Assembly (NCBI GenBank): GCA_013003425.1
Contig: JABDJB010000012.1
Coordinates: forward strand, 1 to 64,000
Direction: 5' to 3'
Source: Gammaproteobacteria bacterium
GTDB taxonomy: Bacteria; Pseudomonadota; Gammaproteobacteria; Steroidobacterales; JABDKV01
DNA length: 64,000 nucleotides
Shown here: positions 54,686 through 64,000 of the stretch, in pieces
How positions within the stretch are numbered: the first letter of the stretch is position 1
How the letters are laid out: the number at the start of each line of letters is the position of its first letter
Notes under the pieces: generated by a model
The model's input: the letters and a program-made list of their open reading frames with translations, nothing else
Database searches by the model: none
What the model was told of the DNA's origin: nothing
Translations under genes and position numbers: made by a program

Positions 54686-54780
54686 GTAAGAGTCACGAGG
54701 GCGAAGCGGCCGCGCATTATAGCAGCCGGGCCGGGCGCGGGTTTGACTGCCAGTCGAAATTGCGGTGCGATGCCCGCGTG

Positions 54781-55938
54781 ATGAGGTTACCCGCAGTGCT
54801 CTTGCTGATCCTGGTCGCCATCCCGGGCCAGTCGGGCCACGCTGCCGACGACCGGGCAGAGCGCGAAAAGGAACTGCAGCAGGTACGGCAACGGATTGAA
54901 GCGCTGCGTGGCGAGATCGATGCCGACATCGAAAAACGCGACAGCATGACAGCGCGACTGCGCGATACCGAGCGATTGCTGGGCGCGGTACGGCGCAATC
55001 TGGCCAGCCTGCGTACCGAACGCGAAAGCTCGGAGGCCAGGCAGCGGGCACTGTCACAGCAGCAGCAACAGCGCCGCGCCGAGCTCGACAGTGTGCGCGA
55101 CAGTCTTGCCGGCCAGCTACGTGCTGCGTATGTCAACGGGCGCGAGGAGCGACTCAAACTGTTGCTGAGCCACCGGGACCCGGCGGTTGTGGGGCGGCAG
55201 AACATTTACTACCGCTACCTGACCGATAGTCGGGTGCAGCAGATCGGTCAGGTCGAGCAGCACCTTGCAGAGCTGGCGCGCATCGAAGCAGAAGTACAGG
55301 CTGAAACCGCTCGCCTTGCGGAACTGGAGCGACGCCGCAGTGAGGAGCTGGCAAGTCTGGAGCGCGGGCGTGAAGAGCGTCGCGAGATCATTGCAAAGCT
55401 CGGCACCCGTATTGACAGCGGCGGTTCGCAGCTGGGCCAACTGACGCGCCAGGAACAGGCGCTGGTTAATCTGCTCGAAGAGCTGGAACGGGCGCTGGCT
55501 GACTTTCCGGTAGATTCACAAGAACCGTTTAATACGCTGAAAGGCAAGCTGGCGTGGCCGGTGCAGGGTGAAGTGCTCGGCAATTTCGGCCGGGCGCGAT
55601 CCGGCAAGTCGATGAAATGGAATGGCGTGCTCATCGGCGCGCAGCGCGGTTCGCCGGTACGAGCAATCGCTCACGGGCGCGTGGCTTACGCTGACTGGTT
55701 ACCGGGTCTCGGACTGTTGACCGTTATTGAACATGGTGACGGCTATCTCAGCTTGTACGGTCACAACGAGCGACTGGACAAGACTGCCGGTGACTGGGTC
55801 GACGCCGGCGAAGTAATCGCAAGCGTCGGCGACAGTGGCGGCCAGCCGCAGCCGGCGTTGTACTTCGAGATTCGTCACCAGCGTACGCCGGTCAATCCGC
55901 ACCCGTGGTTTAACAAACGCCTGGCAACGTCACAATAA
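54781..55938 (+). CDS. envC: Murein hydrolase activator EnvC
   Basis: A 385-residue secreted protein: signal (LPAVLLLILVAIPGQSGHA), a coiled coil of about 220 residues rich in Arg/Glu/Gln (ERLKLLLSHRDP marks the known hairpin), and a C-terminal LytM/M23 domain (LAWPVQGEVLGNFGRARSG, ending LYFEIRHQRTPVNPHPWF). The metal-binding positions are replaced: WNGVLIGAQRGSPV lacks the expected His and Asp, as in E. coli EnvC, which activates amidases without cutting. ATG 54781 is used. The gene normally sits beside gpmI, which is absent here. Confidence 0.92.
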   Translation: MRLPAVLLLILVAIPGQSGHAADDRAEREKELQQVRQRIEALRGEIDADIEKRDSMTARLRDTERLLGAVRRNLASLRTERESSEARQRALSQQQQQRRAELDSVRDSLAGQLRAAYVNGREERLKLLLSHRDPAVVGRQNIYYRYLTDSRVQQIGQVEQHLAELARIEAEVQAETARLAELERRRSEELASLERGREERREIIAKLGTRIDSGGSQLGQLTRQEQALVNLLEELERALADFPVDSQEPFNTLKGKLAWPVQGEVLGNFGRARSGKSMKWNGVLIGAQRGSPVRAIAHGRVAYADWLPGLGLLTVIEHGDGYLSLYGHNERLDKTAGDWVDAGEVIASVGDSGGQPQPALYFEIRHQRTPVNPHPWFNKRLATSQ

Positions 55939-56077: not shown

Positions 56078-58111
56078 GTGAAAAAAACAGAATCCGGAAA
56101 CAACCGGACCCGCACACTTATCTGTACTCCGCTGCTGCTGACGCTGTTCGCTTCGGCGTCCTGGGCCGACCCGTTTCCGGCCGAACTCGAATTAAGCACG
56201 TTGCAGTCGGCCAATGGCGGCGACGGCAGTGCGGGAGCCATCATCGAGGGCGCACTCGCCGACGATACAAGCGGCATGACGGTGGCAAGCGGAGATGTAA
56301 ACGGTGACGGTCGTGCCGACCTGATCATCGGTGCCCCCGAGGCGTCCCCCGGAGGCCGCACCAACGCCGGTTCCACCTATGTGCTGTTCGGGAGCGCGAC
56401 CGGCTATCCGGCACAGCTGGACCTGGCTGGCCTGCTGGCCGCAAATGGCGGCAACGGCACGGCAGGTTTTGTGCTTCACGGTATCGATTCCGGCGATTTC
56501 TCCGGTCTGACATTGAGCGCAGCTTCGGATATCAACGATGACGGCATTAACGACATTGTGATTGGCGCCGACCTCGCCGACCTTGCAGCTGAAAGCAACG
56601 ATGCCGGCGAAAGCTACGTTGTTTTTGGCAGCGCGGCCGGTTTTCCCGCCGAGATCGAGCTTTCTTCGCTGCTTGCGGCGAACGGCGGCGACGGCAGCAC
56701 GGGTTTCGTGATCAAGGGCATCAACTTCGCGGACTTCGCCGGAGTGGTAGCGGCCGGCGGCGACTTCAATGGCGACATGATTGACGACCTGGTAATCGGC
56801 GCGCGCACCGCAGACCCTGCCGGCAATCGCGGCAGCGCTGGCCAGACGTTTGTACTTTTCGGGCGCGACAGCGGGTTTCCGGCTGAGCTGTCTCTTACCA
56901 CGCTGCTGCCTGGCAATGGTGGCAATGGTTCGACCGGCTTCGTCATCGAAGGCATCAACGCGTTTGATGAATCCGGCACCGCGATTGCCAGCGCCGGCGA
57001 TGTCAATGGCGATACCATCGACGACCTTGTTATCAGTGCGCCGGAAGCCGACGGCTCGGGTAATGACTTCTCCGGCGAGGTTTACGTCGTGTTTGGTCGC
57101 AGCACCGGTTTTTCGGCGCTGTTCCAGCTGTCATCGTTGCCAGGTGGCGATGGCAGCACGGGCTTCGTGATGTATGGCGAAGATATATTCCTGCTTACCG
57201 GCCGCTCAGTGGATGCCGCCGGCGACGTTAACGGTGACGGCATTGACGATATCGTATTCGGCGCTGACCTGGCGCTGGGCGGTGCCGGCAAGGCCTACGT
57301 GATATTCGGTCGGGACACCGGTTTTCCCGGCAGCTTGTCGCTGACTACACTGCTGGCGGCCAACGGTGGTGACGGCAGTACCGGCTTTGTCATGAACGGC
57401 GTGGCCGCGGGCGACGGCGCCGGCCTGCCGGTAGCGGGACTGGGCGATATAAATAACGACGGCTTCGACGATGTCGGCGTCGCCGCACTGTTTTCCAGTC
57501 CGGGCGACCGCACATTCGCCGGTACCGTTTACGTGGTTTACGGTGCGGATACCGGCTACCCCGCGGAACTCGACCTGGCATCGCTGCTGGTTGCCAACGG
57601 CGGTGACGGCACGGTCGGTTTTGCGGTGAACGGGATCGTGGCCAACGATGCTGCCGGTATCGGGCTGGGTGGCGGCGACATGAACGGTGATGGCATTGCA
57701 GATATGCTCATCGGGGCCGCCTTCGCCGACCCGAATGCCCGTGACCTGGCCGGTGAAACCTACATCGTGTTTGGTCAGGCAGCGGTTGCCGATAGCGACG
57801 GCGACGGCGTTGGCGACGACACCGATAACTGTATCGCGGTAGCTAACGCTGACCAGACTGACAGCAACGGCGACGGAATCGGCAACATCTGCGATGGTGA
57901 CGTTACCGGTAGCGACGGCTCCGCAGACTGCCTGGTCAATCTGCTTGACCTGAGCGCAATGCGCGGGGCATTCCTGACAACAGCAGGGTCACCGGGCTAT
58001 GACCCGCAGCTCGACTTCAACAGCAGCGATAGCATCGATCTGCAGGACCTGGCCATCATGCGCGGGATGTTCCTGCTGCCGCCGGGCCCCAGCGCAACCG
58101 GTTGCAACTAG
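56078..58111 (+). CDS. Secreted FG-GAP beta-propeller protein with TSP3/dockerin-like tail
   Basis: A 677-residue protein with a signal peptide (TPLLLTLFASASWADPF) and seven repeats of about 75 residues. Each starts FPAELELSTLLAANGGDG-like, carries an FG-GAP/calcium motif (DVNGDGRADLIIGAPEA and variants) and ends YVLFGSATG-like. Seven such units build an integrin-alpha-type seven-bladed propeller. The C-terminus has a TSP3-like DSDGDGVGDDTDNC and SNGDGIGNICDGDV, then a dockerin-like pair (LVNLLDLSAMRGAFLTTAG and IDLQDLAIMRGMFLLPPGP). GTG 56078 has GAAGGA upstream. Surface binding or adhesion is inferred. Confidence 0.88.
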   Translation: MKKTESGNNRTRTLICTPLLLTLFASASWADPFPAELELSTLQSANGGDGSAGAIIEGALADDTSGMTVASGDVNGDGRADLIIGAPEASPGGRTNAGSTYVLFGSATGYPAQLDLAGLLAANGGNGTAGFVLHGIDSGDFSGLTLSAASDINDDGINDIVIGADLADLAAESNDAGESYVVFGSAAGFPAEIELSSLLAANGGDGSTGFVIKGINFADFAGVVAAGGDFNGDMIDDLVIGARTADPAGNRGSAGQTFVLFGRDSGFPAELSLTTLLPGNGGNGSTGFVIEGINAFDESGTAIASAGDVNGDTIDDLVISAPEADGSGNDFSGEVYVVFGRSTGFSALFQLSSLPGGDGSTGFVMYGEDIFLLTGRSVDAAGDVNGDGIDDIVFGADLALGGAGKAYVIFGRDTGFPGSLSLTTLLAANGGDGSTGFVMNGVAAGDGAGLPVAGLGDINNDGFDDVGVAALFSSPGDRTFAGTVYVVYGADTGYPAELDLASLLVANGGDGTVGFAVNGIVANDAAGIGLGGGDMNGDGIADMLIGAAFADPNARDLAGETYIVFGQAAVADSDGDGVGDDTDNCIAVANADQTDSNGDGIGNICDGDVTGSDGSADCLVNLLDLSAMRGAFLTTAGSPGYDPQLDFNSSDSIDLQDLAIMRGMFLLPPGPSATGCN

Positions 58112-58219: not shown

Positions 58220-59455
58220 ATGTCAGTAATTTCCCGCGGTCTGCTTGCTGTATTAATAGGAGTCGTACTCGGTGTTTCACTCAGTGCCGGCAGTATCGTG
58301 CTGGCCGAGCTGGAAGCCCGTGAAACCGAGGCCTTGCCGATAGCCGAGGCGCGCCTGTTCGCCGAGGTGCTGGAACGGGTCAAGCGCGAATACGTCGACT
58401 CTGTAGATGATGCCGATCTCATCCAGGCTGCAATACGCGGCATGGTTGCCGATCTGGATCCACACTCGGCGTTTCTCAACTCGCAGGAATACCGCGAGAT
58501 TCGTATTAATACCTCAGGCAACTACACCGGCGTCGGCCTCGAAGTGAATATTGAGGACGGCCAGGTTGTGGTGGTCTCGCCCATCGACAACACACCTGCA
58601 CACCGCGCCGGTATGCAACCGGGCGATATCCTGATGATGGTTGATGGTTATCCGATCGAGCAGGATCTCGAAGACACGGTTGCCCGCATGCGCGGTGAAC
58701 CGGGTACCCCGGTGCGCCTGACCGTGGCACGCGAAGGCGCCGACGACCTGCTGCACTTCAATCTAACCCGCGCCCGCATACAGATGACCAGCGTGCGTTC
58801 GGCGATGCTCGAGCCCGGTTACGGCTACATACGTATCAGCCAGTTCAGCGAATCGACCTCGCGTGACCTGGCGCGCGCTGTGCTGGACCTGGTGGAACGC
58901 AGTGATGACACCCTTTCGGGAATAGTTATCGACCTGCGTAACAACCCGGGTGGCGTGCTCGAGGCCGCGGTCGACGTGTCCGATGCGTTTCTCGACGATG
59001 GCGAAATTGTCTCGGCCAGCGGCCGCGCTGTCGAAGCCGATTTTTCCATGACGGCCAACCCCGGGGATATTTCCCGTGGTGCCCGTCTTGCTGTCCTGAT
59101 TAATTCAGGTACGGCATCGGCTTCGGAAATTGTGGCGGGCGCGTTGCAGGACCACGATCGCGCGGTGCTGCTGGGCTCGCGCAGTTTCGGCAAGGGTTCA
59201 GTGCAAACAGTCATGCCGCTGTCCGACGGGCGCGCAATAAAACTGACTACGTCGCGCTATTTCACGCCATCCGGCCGCTCGATACATGAAAGCGGCATCA
59301 TGCCCGACGTCGAGCTGGAGACCTCCGGCAGTGATGCAGTGGACGCGAGCCGGTGGCTGCAGGAAGCCACCACAATGCTGGCTGACGACTACCAGTTGCG
59401 CCAGGCGCTGACCCACCTGAAAGGCGGCGAGATTCGACAAAGCGCCGCACAGTGA
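58220..59455 (+). CDS. ctpA: S41 family C-terminal processing peptidase
   Basis: A 411-residue periplasmic protease with a signal/anchor (LLAVLIGVVLGVSLSAGSIV), an N-terminal helix bundle, a PDZ domain (YTGVGLEVNIEDGQVVVVSP, then GDILMMVDGYPI) and the S41 core with Ser300 in TASASEIVAGAL and Lys325 in RSFGKGSVQT. It cleaves proteins at their C-termini, and in related bacteria controls peptidoglycan enzymes. ATG 58220 has AGGAG upstream. Its stop overlaps the yibQ-like gene as GTGA. Confidence 0.95.
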   Translation: MSVISRGLLAVLIGVVLGVSLSAGSIVLAELEARETEALPIAEARLFAEVLERVKREYVDSVDDADLIQAAIRGMVADLDPHSAFLNSQEYREIRINTSGNYTGVGLEVNIEDGQVVVVSPIDNTPAHRAGMQPGDILMMVDGYPIEQDLEDTVARMRGEPGTPVRLTVAREGADDLLHFNLTRARIQMTSVRSAMLEPGYGYIRISQFSESTSRDLARAVLDLVERSDDTLSGIVIDLRNNPGGVLEAAVDVSDAFLDDGEIVSASGRAVEADFSMTANPGDISRGARLAVLINSGTASASEIVAGALQDHDRAVLLGSRSFGKGSVQTVMPLSDGRAIKLTTSRYFTPSGRSIHESGIMPDVELETSGSDAVDASRWLQEATTMLADDYQLRQALTHLKGGEIRQSAAQ

Positions 59456-60240
59456 CTAGCCGTAATTCCAACCTGCCCCGGTGGCTGCTGCTAACCGGAA
59501 TCCTTGCGCTTAATGGCGCACAAGCCGAACCGGTTATCGCGCTGATCGTCGATGACCTGGGTTTTCGCTACAGCGAAAGCCGGCGGGCAACGGCGCTGCC
59601 GGGCCCGGTCGCCTGCGCGGTAATACCCGGCACACCGCATGGCGAAAAAATGGCTCGCGCCGCGCATGCCAGCGGCAAGGAAGTGATGCTGCACCTGCCG
59701 ATGGAGCCTGTAGATCGTTCCCGTCCGGTTGGTGCCCACGGTATCGATTTGCAAACCACCCGGGATGGCATTACCAGTACGCTGCAGGCAGGCATCGAAG
59801 CGGTGCCGCACGTCAGCGGCGTAAACAATCACATGGGCAGTCTCATTACCCGTCATCCGGGACACATGAGCTGGCTTATGCAGGATCTGCGTGAGAGCGG
59901 ACTGTTTTTTGTCGACAGCGTAACTACCGAATCCAGCGTCGCGTTGAGCATGGCACGCGAGGCCGGGGTGAGCGCTACCCGGCGCGACATGTTTCTCGAT
60001 TCAGAACAGGCCGATGAGCAGGAGATCCATCAGCGGCTGCAACGGCTGGTGGAACTGGCACAACGACGCGGACACGCGCTGGGTATAGCCCATCCGTTTC
60101 CGGCGACGATGACGGTGCTGGAACGCGAACTGCCGCGACTCGACGGCGTAAAACTGGTTTCGGTGCGCGAGCTCATTGCATTACGTTCGCAGGCGCAGCA
60201 AGCGGAGCGATTGACTATCGCCGTGGAAAAAACACAGTAG
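59452..60240 (+). CDS. Divergent polysaccharide deacetylase family protein (YibQ-like)
   Basis: A 262-residue secreted protein: signal (LPRWLLLTGILALNGAQA), then VIALIVDDLGFRYSESRRAT, TALPGPVACAVIPGTPHG, GKEVMLHLPMEPVDRS, VSGVNNHMGSLITRHPGHM and GHALGIAHPFPATMTVLE. This is the divergent polysaccharide deacetylase (DUF610/YibQ) family, conserved with envC and ctpA in gammaproteobacteria. Some metal-site residues (Asp, His) of carbohydrate esterases persist, but substrate is unknown. GTG 59452 overlaps the ctpA stop. Confidence 0.9.
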   Translation: MTSRNSNLPRWLLLTGILALNGAQAEPVIALIVDDLGFRYSESRRATALPGPVACAVIPGTPHGEKMARAAHASGKEVMLHLPMEPVDRSRPVGAHGIDLQTTRDGITSTLQAGIEAVPHVSGVNNHMGSLITRHPGHMSWLMQDLRESGLFFVDSVTTESSVALSMAREAGVSATRRDMFLDSEQADEQEIHQRLQRLVELAQRRGHALGIAHPFPATMTVLERELPRLDGVKLVSVRELIALRSQAQQAERLTIAVEKTQ

Positions 60241-60316: not shown

Positions 60317-60973
60317 ATGAAGAATCTTCTTTTTGTAGTCCTGTTCACGCTTGTCATCACGGCGTGTAGCAAGAAAGACGAAGACCTTGAGGACGCTGCT
60401 GCCAGGATGGCGCATGATGCGAAGGAAAAGGTCGGCGATGTTATCTCTGAAGAGCCGCCGAAAAACCTCGAGGAAGCGCTGAAGCGGGTTGGCGACGCTT
60501 TGGGTGATGGCGAGCAATCCGTGTCCGCAGCTGACCTGAAAACGCTGCTGCCGGAGGAAATCGCCGGGATGAAGCGCACCAGTTATGAGGCTGAACGTGC
60601 AGGCATCGGCATCAAGGTGTCAAAGGCGCACGCTGAATATGCAGACGGCGACCGCCGTGCCAGCCTGATGATTACCGACCTCGGCGCGGTCAGCGGGCTG
60701 GCAAGGATGGGCATGGAGTTGTTCGAGACGGAGCTCGACAGTGAAGACGAGAACGGTTTCGAGCGCACTACCGAGTACAAGGGGCACAAGTCCTTCCAGC
60801 GCCTGCAACGCAGCGGTGACCAGAGTATTGCCGAGATCATGGTTTTCGTCAGCGACAGGTTTACTGTGCATCTGGACGGGCAGAATATCGGGTTCGACGA
60901 ATTGCTCGAGTCAATGGACAAGATCGATATCGGCAAGCTGACGGCGATGAAAGCTCCGGCAGCGGCTGAATAA
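60317..60973 (+). CDS. Lipoprotein of unknown function, coupled to an Ntn hydrolase
   Basis: A 218-residue protein with a lipoprotein signal (MKNLLFVVLFTLVITACSKK, lipobox Cys 17) and an acidic helical N-terminal section (EDLEDAAARMAHDAKEKVGD). A globular C-terminal half follows (VSAADLKTLLPEEIAGMKRT, TEYKGHKSFQRLQRSGDQSI, and DRFTVHLDGQNIGFDELLES). It belongs to no family I recognise. It overlaps the Ntn-hydrolase gene by one base (TAATG), so the two proteins are probably made together. Confidence 0.7.
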   Translation: MKNLLFVVLFTLVITACSKKDEDLEDAAARMAHDAKEKVGDVISEEPPKNLEEALKRVGDALGDGEQSVSAADLKTLLPEEIAGMKRTSYEAERAGIGIKVSKAHAEYADGDRRASLMITDLGAVSGLARMGMELFETELDSEDENGFERTTEYKGHKSFQRLQRSGDQSIAEIMVFVSDRFTVHLDGQNIGFDELLESMDKIDIGKLTAMKAPAAAE

Positions 60974-61545
60974 TGTCGATTATCGTTGTTGTGCGAAAAG
61001 GCGGCAGCGCCGCCATCGCGGCCGATACCGTTCAGAGTGATGATTCATTGCTGCTGCGTGCTGGCTACGTGCGCAATCACGAAAAGATCATTGCCTTCAA
61101 TGACTGCTACCTGGGACTGGCCGGGTGGGCTGCCGCCCAGGACATCATGGAAAGCCTGGTCAGGAATCACGCGGCACAGCTGGACTTTTCCGGTCGCAGC
61201 AAGATTTTTGAAACCATGCGGCGGGTGCATTCGATCATCAAGAGCGACTACCACATCGACACCAGCGAGGAAAAAGACCAGCCGGTCGAGTCGAGCCAGC
61301 TGTCAATGCTGATCGCCAACCCGGCGGGAATTTTCGAAGTAGACAGCTATCGCACCGTGTGTGAGTACGGCCGCTACTTCGCTCTGGGCTCCGGACGTGC
61401 GCTGGCGCTGGGCGCGATGCACGCACTTTACGAGCGTCTCGACACCGCCGCGGAAATTGCCCGCGCCGGTGTTGAAGCGGCGTGTGAGTTTGATGACGGC
61501 TGTGCGCTTCCGGCGACCAGCTACTCCATCGAACTGGCAAACTGA
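60973..61545 (+). CDS. Proteasome-like Ntn hydrolase with Ser at position 2
   Basis: A 190-residue protein with the N-terminal pattern of HslV and bacterial proteasome-like hydrolases: MSIIVVVRKGGSAAIAADTV, then VRNHEKIIAFNDCYLGLAGW. The later YGRYFALGSGRALALGAMHA matches the GSG loop that completes the active site. In HslV and proteasome beta subunits the N-terminal nucleophile after Met removal is Thr. Here it would be Ser2. The betaproteobacterial proteasome homolog family is the nearest described kind in my judgement. Cytoplasmic by sequence, yet coupled to a lipoprotein gene. A peptidase, or non-peptidase Ntn amidohydrolase, role is possible. Confidence 0.75.
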   Translation: MSIIVVVRKGGSAAIAADTVQSDDSLLLRAGYVRNHEKIIAFNDCYLGLAGWAAAQDIMESLVRNHAAQLDFSGRSKIFETMRRVHSIIKSDYHIDTSEEKDQPVESSQLSMLIANPAGIFEVDSYRTVCEYGRYFALGSGRALALGAMHALYERLDTAAEIARAGVEAACEFDDGCALPATSYSIELAN

Positions 61546-62532: not shown

Positions 62533-62976
62533 CTGTAATTATTCTCTTGATCCCTTTCCGGGCGTTCAGGCGCTGCTTTATCCAAAACTGAATTTATGCT
62601 GACTTGCCGTGCGAAGCAAGGTTAAACCTGCTGCGGCAAAAGATGCAGGCGCATGACTTTCACAGCATGAGACAACAGCTCTCGTAAACTTTCCGGGTCC
62701 AGGGAAACTGCTCCTGTAATGCCAGTACCGCCTGTGATGGCGGCGCTGCCGCGGCGTGTATTTTTTACGCTTACTGCGTAGAATCACAACCCGGCGCCCG
62801 GTGCCAGCCTGGTTGCGAGCCTGCGAACAGTCCATGACGGTGAGGCTTGCAGTTTGTCGGCCAGGGCCAGGGGTTTTGACGGCAAGGCGGTGGCTGGCCG
62901 GTTGCAGCGCCGTCGTGTCAATTTCAGACGTCAGCATAGCCTTCGGCAACTGATGAATACTCAGGGGAGCAGAGAA
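62533..62976. other. Gene-free stretch of about 440 bp
   Basis: I see no supportable gene. Short open frames on both strands lack ribosome binding sites and recognisable sequence. The region contains a small TACGC-TTACT-GCGTA dyad near 62765 and presumably the promoters of the flanking divergent genes. Confidence 0.5.
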
Positions 62977-64000
62977 GTGCAGATTATCCGCAAGACCGCT
63001 TTGGCGGCAGCAATGGTCCTGGCCGCATCGTGTGCGCAGGTGCCGCCCGGCACTCCGACGACAGAAACGACTCCGGTCGCCGGGGACAGCTATCGTGCGG
63101 TCCCGGACGCGTCGTCGCGTTTTGGTATTTACGCGCCGGTTCGACTCACTGCTGACCTTTCCGATCTGAGCGATAACCAGCGCATCATGATCAGGCTGCT
63201 GATCGGCGCATCAAAGATCATGGACGAGCTGTTCTGGCTGCAGGCATTCGGCGAGCCGCGGCCGTTCCTGGCTGCAGTGGAAGAGTCAGCGCGCGACTTT
63301 GCCGCCATCAACTATGGGCCGTGGGACCGGCTCGACGGCGACAAGCCCTTCCTGACCGGTTTTGGCCCAAAGCCTGCGGGTGCCAACTTCTACCCCGCCG
63401 ACATGAGTCGTGAAGAGTTTTCTGCGGCACAGATGGAAGACAAGGACGGCTTGTACTCGCTGGTGCGACGCCGCGACGACGGCAGCCTGTACACGCTGCC
63501 ATATCACAAGGCATATGCTGACCGGCTCGAAGCCGCTGCGGCGCTGCTGCTGGAAGCTTCTGATTTCGCCGAAGACGAAGGATTTCGCAACTATCTGCGT
63601 CTGCGCGCGCGTGCGCTGGTTACCGATGACTATCAACCCAGCGATATGGCCTGGCTGGACATGAAGAACAACCGCATCGACGTCGTGATCGGCGCCATCG
63701 AGAACTACGAAGACCAGCTGTTCAGTTATCGTGCTGCCTACGAATCATATGTGCTGCTGAAAGATCTCAGCTGGAGCCAGCGGCTGCAGCGTTTTGCCGC
63801 GTTCCTGCCGGACCTGCAGCGGGCGCTGCCGGTGCCTGACCAATACAAGACCGAAAGCCCGGGCAGCGACTCCGATCTGAACGCCTATGATGTCATCTAC
63901 TACGCCGGTCACAGCAATGCCGGCAGCAAGACCATCGCCATCAACCTGCCGAACGACGAAGAAGTGCAGCTTGCCAAGGGCACGCGCCGGTTGCAGCTGA
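62977..64000 (+). CDS. Lipoprotein related to dipeptidyl peptidase III, cut off by window edge
   Basis: The frame is open from GTG 62977 to the right edge, so the C-terminal half with any zinc motif is missing. The N-terminus is a lipoprotein signal (QIIRKTALAAAMVLAASCAQ). Then come DLSDNQRIMIRLLIGASKIMD, FLTGFGPKPAGANFYPADMS and YTLPYHKAYADRLEAAAALL, which resemble the N-terminal part of M49-type (dipeptidyl peptidase III) hydrolases. GTG 62977 has GGGGAG upstream. ATG 62953 is a longer alternative that would hide the lipobox. Confidence 0.7.
   Translation, partial: MQIIRKTALAAAMVLAASCAQVPPGTPTTETTPVAGDSYRAVPDASSRFGIYAPVRLTADLSDLSDNQRIMIRLLIGASKIMDELFWLQAFGEPRPFLAAVEESARDFAAINYGPWDRLDGDKPFLTGFGPKPAGANFYPADMSREEFSAAQMEDKDGLYSLVRRRDDGSLYTLPYHKAYADRLEAAAALLLEASDFAEDEGFRNYLRLRARALVTDDYQPSDMAWLDMKNNRIDVVIGAIENYEDQLFSYRAAYESYVLLKDLSWSQRLQRFAAFLPDLQRALPVPDQYKTESPGSDSDLNAYDVIYYAGHSNAGSKTIAINLPNDEEVQLAKGTRRLQL

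Follow-up and report, generated by a model that had tools for sequence, protein, structure and literature searches.

The window, the whole 64,000-nucleotide stretch of DNA analysed here, encodes a proteasome-type Ntn hydrolase that is a member of a described family, the bacterial proteasome homologue (BPH), in its published serine variant. Taken overall, the locus is very probably best explained as a serine-variant BPH lying in an envelope gene neighbourhood, with a lipoprotein co-expressed in another compartment. An earlier sequence-only reading had taken the hydrolase for a possible new protease or amidase module. This did not hold, since earlier work on BPH (PMC5777263) already describes the serine as well as the missing ATPase partner. 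New here is the lineage-limited envelope-gene neighbourhood of the BPH; a joint function of lipoprotein and BPH is possible.

The lipoprotein ORF (60317-60973, plus strand, 218 aa) reads MKNLLFVVLFTLVITAC followed by SKKDED, with the lipobox ITAC. The BPH ORF (60973-61545, plus strand, 190 aa) starts MSIIVVVRKGG. As the sequence-only reading had described, the two share one base in a TAATG stop/start overlap (60971..60975, plus strand). Relatives, at 56–81% identity, occur in seven further genomes. Within family 1 substitutions were mainly synonymous in both genes, with dN 0.12–0.27 against dS of at least 1.4 for the BPH gene and dN 0.21–0.44 against dS of about 1.5 or more for the lipoprotein gene; dS is near saturation, so only the direction of selection is safe. 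Both genes are under purifying selection. The relatives and the mainly synonymous change in both genes indicate that the ORF pair is not a chance occurrence.

Identity and active site of the hydrolase

When the PDB was searched with phmmer, residues 4–189 of the window hydrolase, nearly its full length, matched Cupriavidus metallidurans BPH (5ovu, E 1.4e-41) and Thiobacillus denitrificans BPH (5ovs, E 1e-35). Its AlphaFold model (pLDDT 83.2) has an Ntn-type core. VIA-align scored the model against solved BPHs at Z 24.4, 24.0 and 23.8; the closest structural match was 5ovu_A (Z 24.4, rmsd 2.8, 180 aligned residues), with 5ovs at 23.8, while HslV and 20S subunits reached 17.5 or less, the best HslV scoring 17.5. 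Identity with HslV is rejected, since fold and phmmer match both place the protein nearer BPH and it scored 14.5 bits on the curated HslV model TIGR03692, where the cut-off is 157.75. PHROG 1040 ('peptidase HslV family') matched it at 49.7 bits, which points only to distant phage relatives. Carriage by plasmids or phages was also rejected: tblastn with the BPH gave zero matches in either collection.

The features that had suggested a proteasome-like enzyme are present: the sequence ALGSGR holds the GSG loop, and NHEKI supplies the counterpart of Lys33, which is Lys37 once Met is removed. Numbered in that way, the site comprises Ser1, Asp17, Lys37, Gly50 and Ser139 (Asp18 and Lys38 when Met is counted), positions identical to the published Thr1, Asp17, Lys37, Gly50 and Ser139 of Td-BPH (PMC5777263). 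These residues are invariant in eight relatives of the window BPH. The sequence-only reading was right about the Ntn fold, the serine as putative nucleophile and the conserved Lys and GSG. The pore loop, YHIDTSEEKDQPVESSQ, is acidic (YHIDTSEEKDQPVESSQL; five D/E and one K/R). Solved BPHs have six D/E there, and the window genome's own HslV has none.

Serine directly follows Met, in keeping with its proposed role as a nucleophile in place of threonine. Among 44 BPH sequences, Ser follows Met in 41, Thr in three and nothing else in any. The residue is therefore not random, and the serine variant predominates among the BPHs sampled from the class. Serine for threonine was reported in 2017 for BPHs outside Betaproteobacteria (PMC5777263).

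No signal peptide was found on the BPH, and no dedicated AAA+ partner in its neighbourhood, a lack that is a stated trait of BPHs (PMC5777263). The earlier remark that no HslU-type ATPase is near stands within the window, although the same contig carries a complete HslU (690.6 bits) beside HslV about 35 kb downstream of the BPH.

The lipoprotein and its domain

The lipoprotein consists of a signal peptide with a Cys17 lipobox, a poorly ordered linker and a C-terminal alpha/beta domain at about residues 67–213. Read from sequence, the lipobox is VITAC at 13–17, and Cys17 is invariant in six sequences. The model has pLDDT of about 90 for most of residues 71–210. Pfam, PHROG and NCBIfam offered no named family above cut-off, and a sequence search of the PDB gave no significant match (best E 0.2). 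Foldseek with the C-terminal domain reached a best E of 1e-3, and VIA Z was 10.6 for TiME, 6.7 for PsbP and 6.4 for Mog1. The modelled domain resembles TiME, PknH, RseB, PsbP and Mog1, a likeness that does not imply kinship. Its fold matches to T6SS immunity proteins, lipocalins and fatty-acid-binding proteins were put down to a common arrangement.

The domain also occurs elsewhere in the window's order: Yip1 membrane proteins of family f11 end in it, with matches of up to 98 bits (L035 823-2094, L038 820-2076 and L050 952-2136). The window lipoprotein has no Pfam match to Yip1 (PF04893) and has only its own domain in common with these proteins, whose C-terminal domain received no name in Pfam scans. 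No BPH match was found in family f11 in the order sample (396 genomes).

Gene neighbourhoods of BPH

Upstream of the lipoprotein, on the plus strand, lie genes for an EnvC-like M23 peptidase with a coiled coil (54760..55938), a CtpA-type S41 carboxyl-terminal processing protease with PDZ and S41 domains (58220..59455), and a divergent polysaccharide deacetylase of YibQ type (59452..60240), the last being the gene that immediately precedes the lipoprotein in each of the eight genomes. The window also has a large FG-GAP-like repeat protein between the EnvC-like and CtpA genes (56078-58111); a relative was seen at the same place in L014. Downstream of the BPH, an M49 (dipeptidyl-peptidase III-like) putative lipoprotein (62854..64000, plus strand) is cut by the window end. 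Between BPH and M49, on the opposite strand, is a SAM methyltransferase (PF13578; 61699..62532, minus strand) that was not found in the relatives' regions.

The order EnvC-like, CtpA, YibQ, lipoprotein, in some genomes a membrane protein, BPH and M49 is kept, with losses, across the eight genomes; contig ends truncate some of the loci compared, and no CtpA was detected in G008 or G022. M49 follows BPH in seven of the eight. In the eighth, G008, all that can be recognised of M49 beside the BPH is a remnant of its C-terminus (L008 1182-1514, minus strand), which suggests that an M49 neighbour was present ancestrally and has been lost. Products of the neighbourhood are mostly exported envelope proteins, unlike the BPH. 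The simplest reading is that, in this lineage, the BPH moved into a cluster of envelope genes or stayed in one.

The order sample gave nine BPH matches, eight strong (at least 350 bits) and one distant (104 bits), and the eight strong genomes are the same ones that gave the eight strongest lipoprotein matches (at least 192 bits). The two genes therefore do keep company, as the sequence-only reading had asked, in 8/8 genomes of two families of the window's order, on the same strand and within about 1.4 kb. Strict adjacency did not stand, and each partner occurs alone elsewhere. Family 1 is represented by five genomes, in all of which the lipoprotein stop and BPH start overlap by 1 nt or are 1 nt apart; in the three of family f5 an uncharacterised membrane-protein gene intervenes (L015 3017-3561, L008 2191-3333, L017 7825-8886) and the gap is 621–1419 nt. 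Two copies of this membrane protein were run against Pfam, with no match. The L015 copy looks frameshifted, appearing as two overlapping ORFs.

BPH matches were found in 44 genomes of the class sample (369 genomes). Apart from the window's own genome, a single lipoprotein match came up there, a weak one of 28 bits from a genome with no BPH match, and no lipoprotein of the window type was found beside a BPH outside the window's order. In a tree rooted with HslV as outgroup, in which some inner nodes are poorly supported, the lipoprotein-linked BPHs form one group together with two BPHs from other families, near which no such lipoprotein lies. The pairing is lineage-limited, seen in just two families of a single order and not always directly adjacent, and the literature searched gave no paper linking BPH to a lipoprotein. 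A functional lipoprotein–protease pair is possible but weakly supported.

One form of such a pair would be a single module: the envelope lipoprotein would sense a periplasmic ligand or stress, coupled translation would keep the BPH proportionate, and the BPH, in the cytoplasm, would process precursors or envelope proteins that are mislocalised. The constant company on one strand in all eight genomes with this BPH type, the tight stop–start junction in 5/5 family 1 genomes and the fold matches to domains of the sensor proteins PknH and RseB speak for it. Against these stand the second family, with its intervening gene and 0.6–1.4 kb separation, the confinement of the pairing to one order, the occurrence of the domain fused to Yip1 where no BPH is found, and the prediction that the inner membrane separates lipoprotein and BPH. 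Moreover, all eight genomes may have inherited one and the same arrangement. We consider this module unlikely.

A different context is much commoner than the envelope genes. In 27 of 35 loci outside the window's order, the BPH gene adjoins ribD and riboflavin synthase or lies between them, all on one strand (L060-L082, L084, L085, L098, L100), and in most cases nrdR precedes and ribBA follows the group (nrdR-ribD-BPH-ribE-ribBA); the count covers 13 families by taxonomic labels and leaves out eight further class-sample BPH matches. In the window genome ribD and riboflavin synthase (ribE) are adjacent with no BPH between. Two BPH papers (PMC5777263, PMC8665760) do not mention riboflavin, and the literature searched gave no paper linking it to BPH. 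Since these papers name neither a substrate nor a regulator, conserved neighbourhoods provide some of the few hints as to what BPH does. The window locus contributes an envelope-gene context found in two families only; three genomic contexts were described for BPH in PMC5777263, and the envelope-lipoprotein context is absent from them.

Proposed function and known systems

For the serine-variant BPH in its envelope neighbourhood, we propose that methionine aminopeptidase would remove Met1 and expose Ser1, which Lys37 and Asp17 would activate, with Gly50 and Ser139 completing the site. In the cytoplasm its subunits would most likely form a double heptameric ring that has an acidic pore loop and, like other BPHs, would work without HslU. 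The lipoprotein would be exported and probably anchored in the outer membrane. It would share transcription and translation with the BPH rather than bind it.

The peptidase step is put conditionally because neither of two Thr-type BPHs that had been purified acted on casein or standard peptides, though they react with epoxomicin or MG132; the suggestion was made that activity may need an additional cofactor (PMC5777263). That inertness would also fit a Ser-BPH that is catalytically dead or non-proteolytic (structural, a ligase or an amidase) and kept for another role. Active-site residues invariant in eight relatives under purifying selection, and the strict retention of Ser or Thr at position 1, argue against this, and we rate it slightly below the module. 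More doubtful still is a coupled stress module of lipoprotein sensor and Ser-BPH in which the lipoprotein pathway would supply the regulator or substrate link missing for the BPHs inactive in vitro. A novel Ser-dependent amidase or protease family apart from BPH and HslV is rejected with near certainty: no NCBIfam equivalog matched and the Pfam Proteasome score (PF00227) is marginal, at 21.4 bits just below the gathering cut-off of 22.4, yet the fold is clear, with strong full-length sequence and structure matches to solved BPH and the same active-site positions.

Several known systems resemble parts of this serine-variant BPH locus. PsbP/Mog1-like proteins, mycobacterial extracellular domains (PknH, TiME, LpqN) and DcrB have an arrangement similar to that of the lipoprotein's C-terminal domain (best Z 10.6 over 136 residues, rmsd 3.8), with identity of 5–12% in most rows. 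The Yip1 proteins of family f11 have a domain homologous to it, attached to a Yip1 part embedded in the membrane rather than to a lipid anchor, in genomes where no BPH was detected. HslV (ClpQ) has the proteasome-type Ntn fold and GSG loop in common with the window BPH; it differs in its Z of about 17, in the window BPH falling below the NCBIfam HslV cut-off, in having no acidic pore loop and in being present separately in the window genome as a true HslV adjoining HslU. BPH itself (PDB 5OVS, 5OVT, 5OVU; PMC5777263) agrees in full-length sequence and fold, in the Ser/Thr1-Asp17-Lys37-Gly50-Ser139 site, in the acidic pore loop and in having no ATPase neighbour; the window protein has Ser1 where the solved examples have Thr1, and Ser1 itself has been reported for other BPHs.
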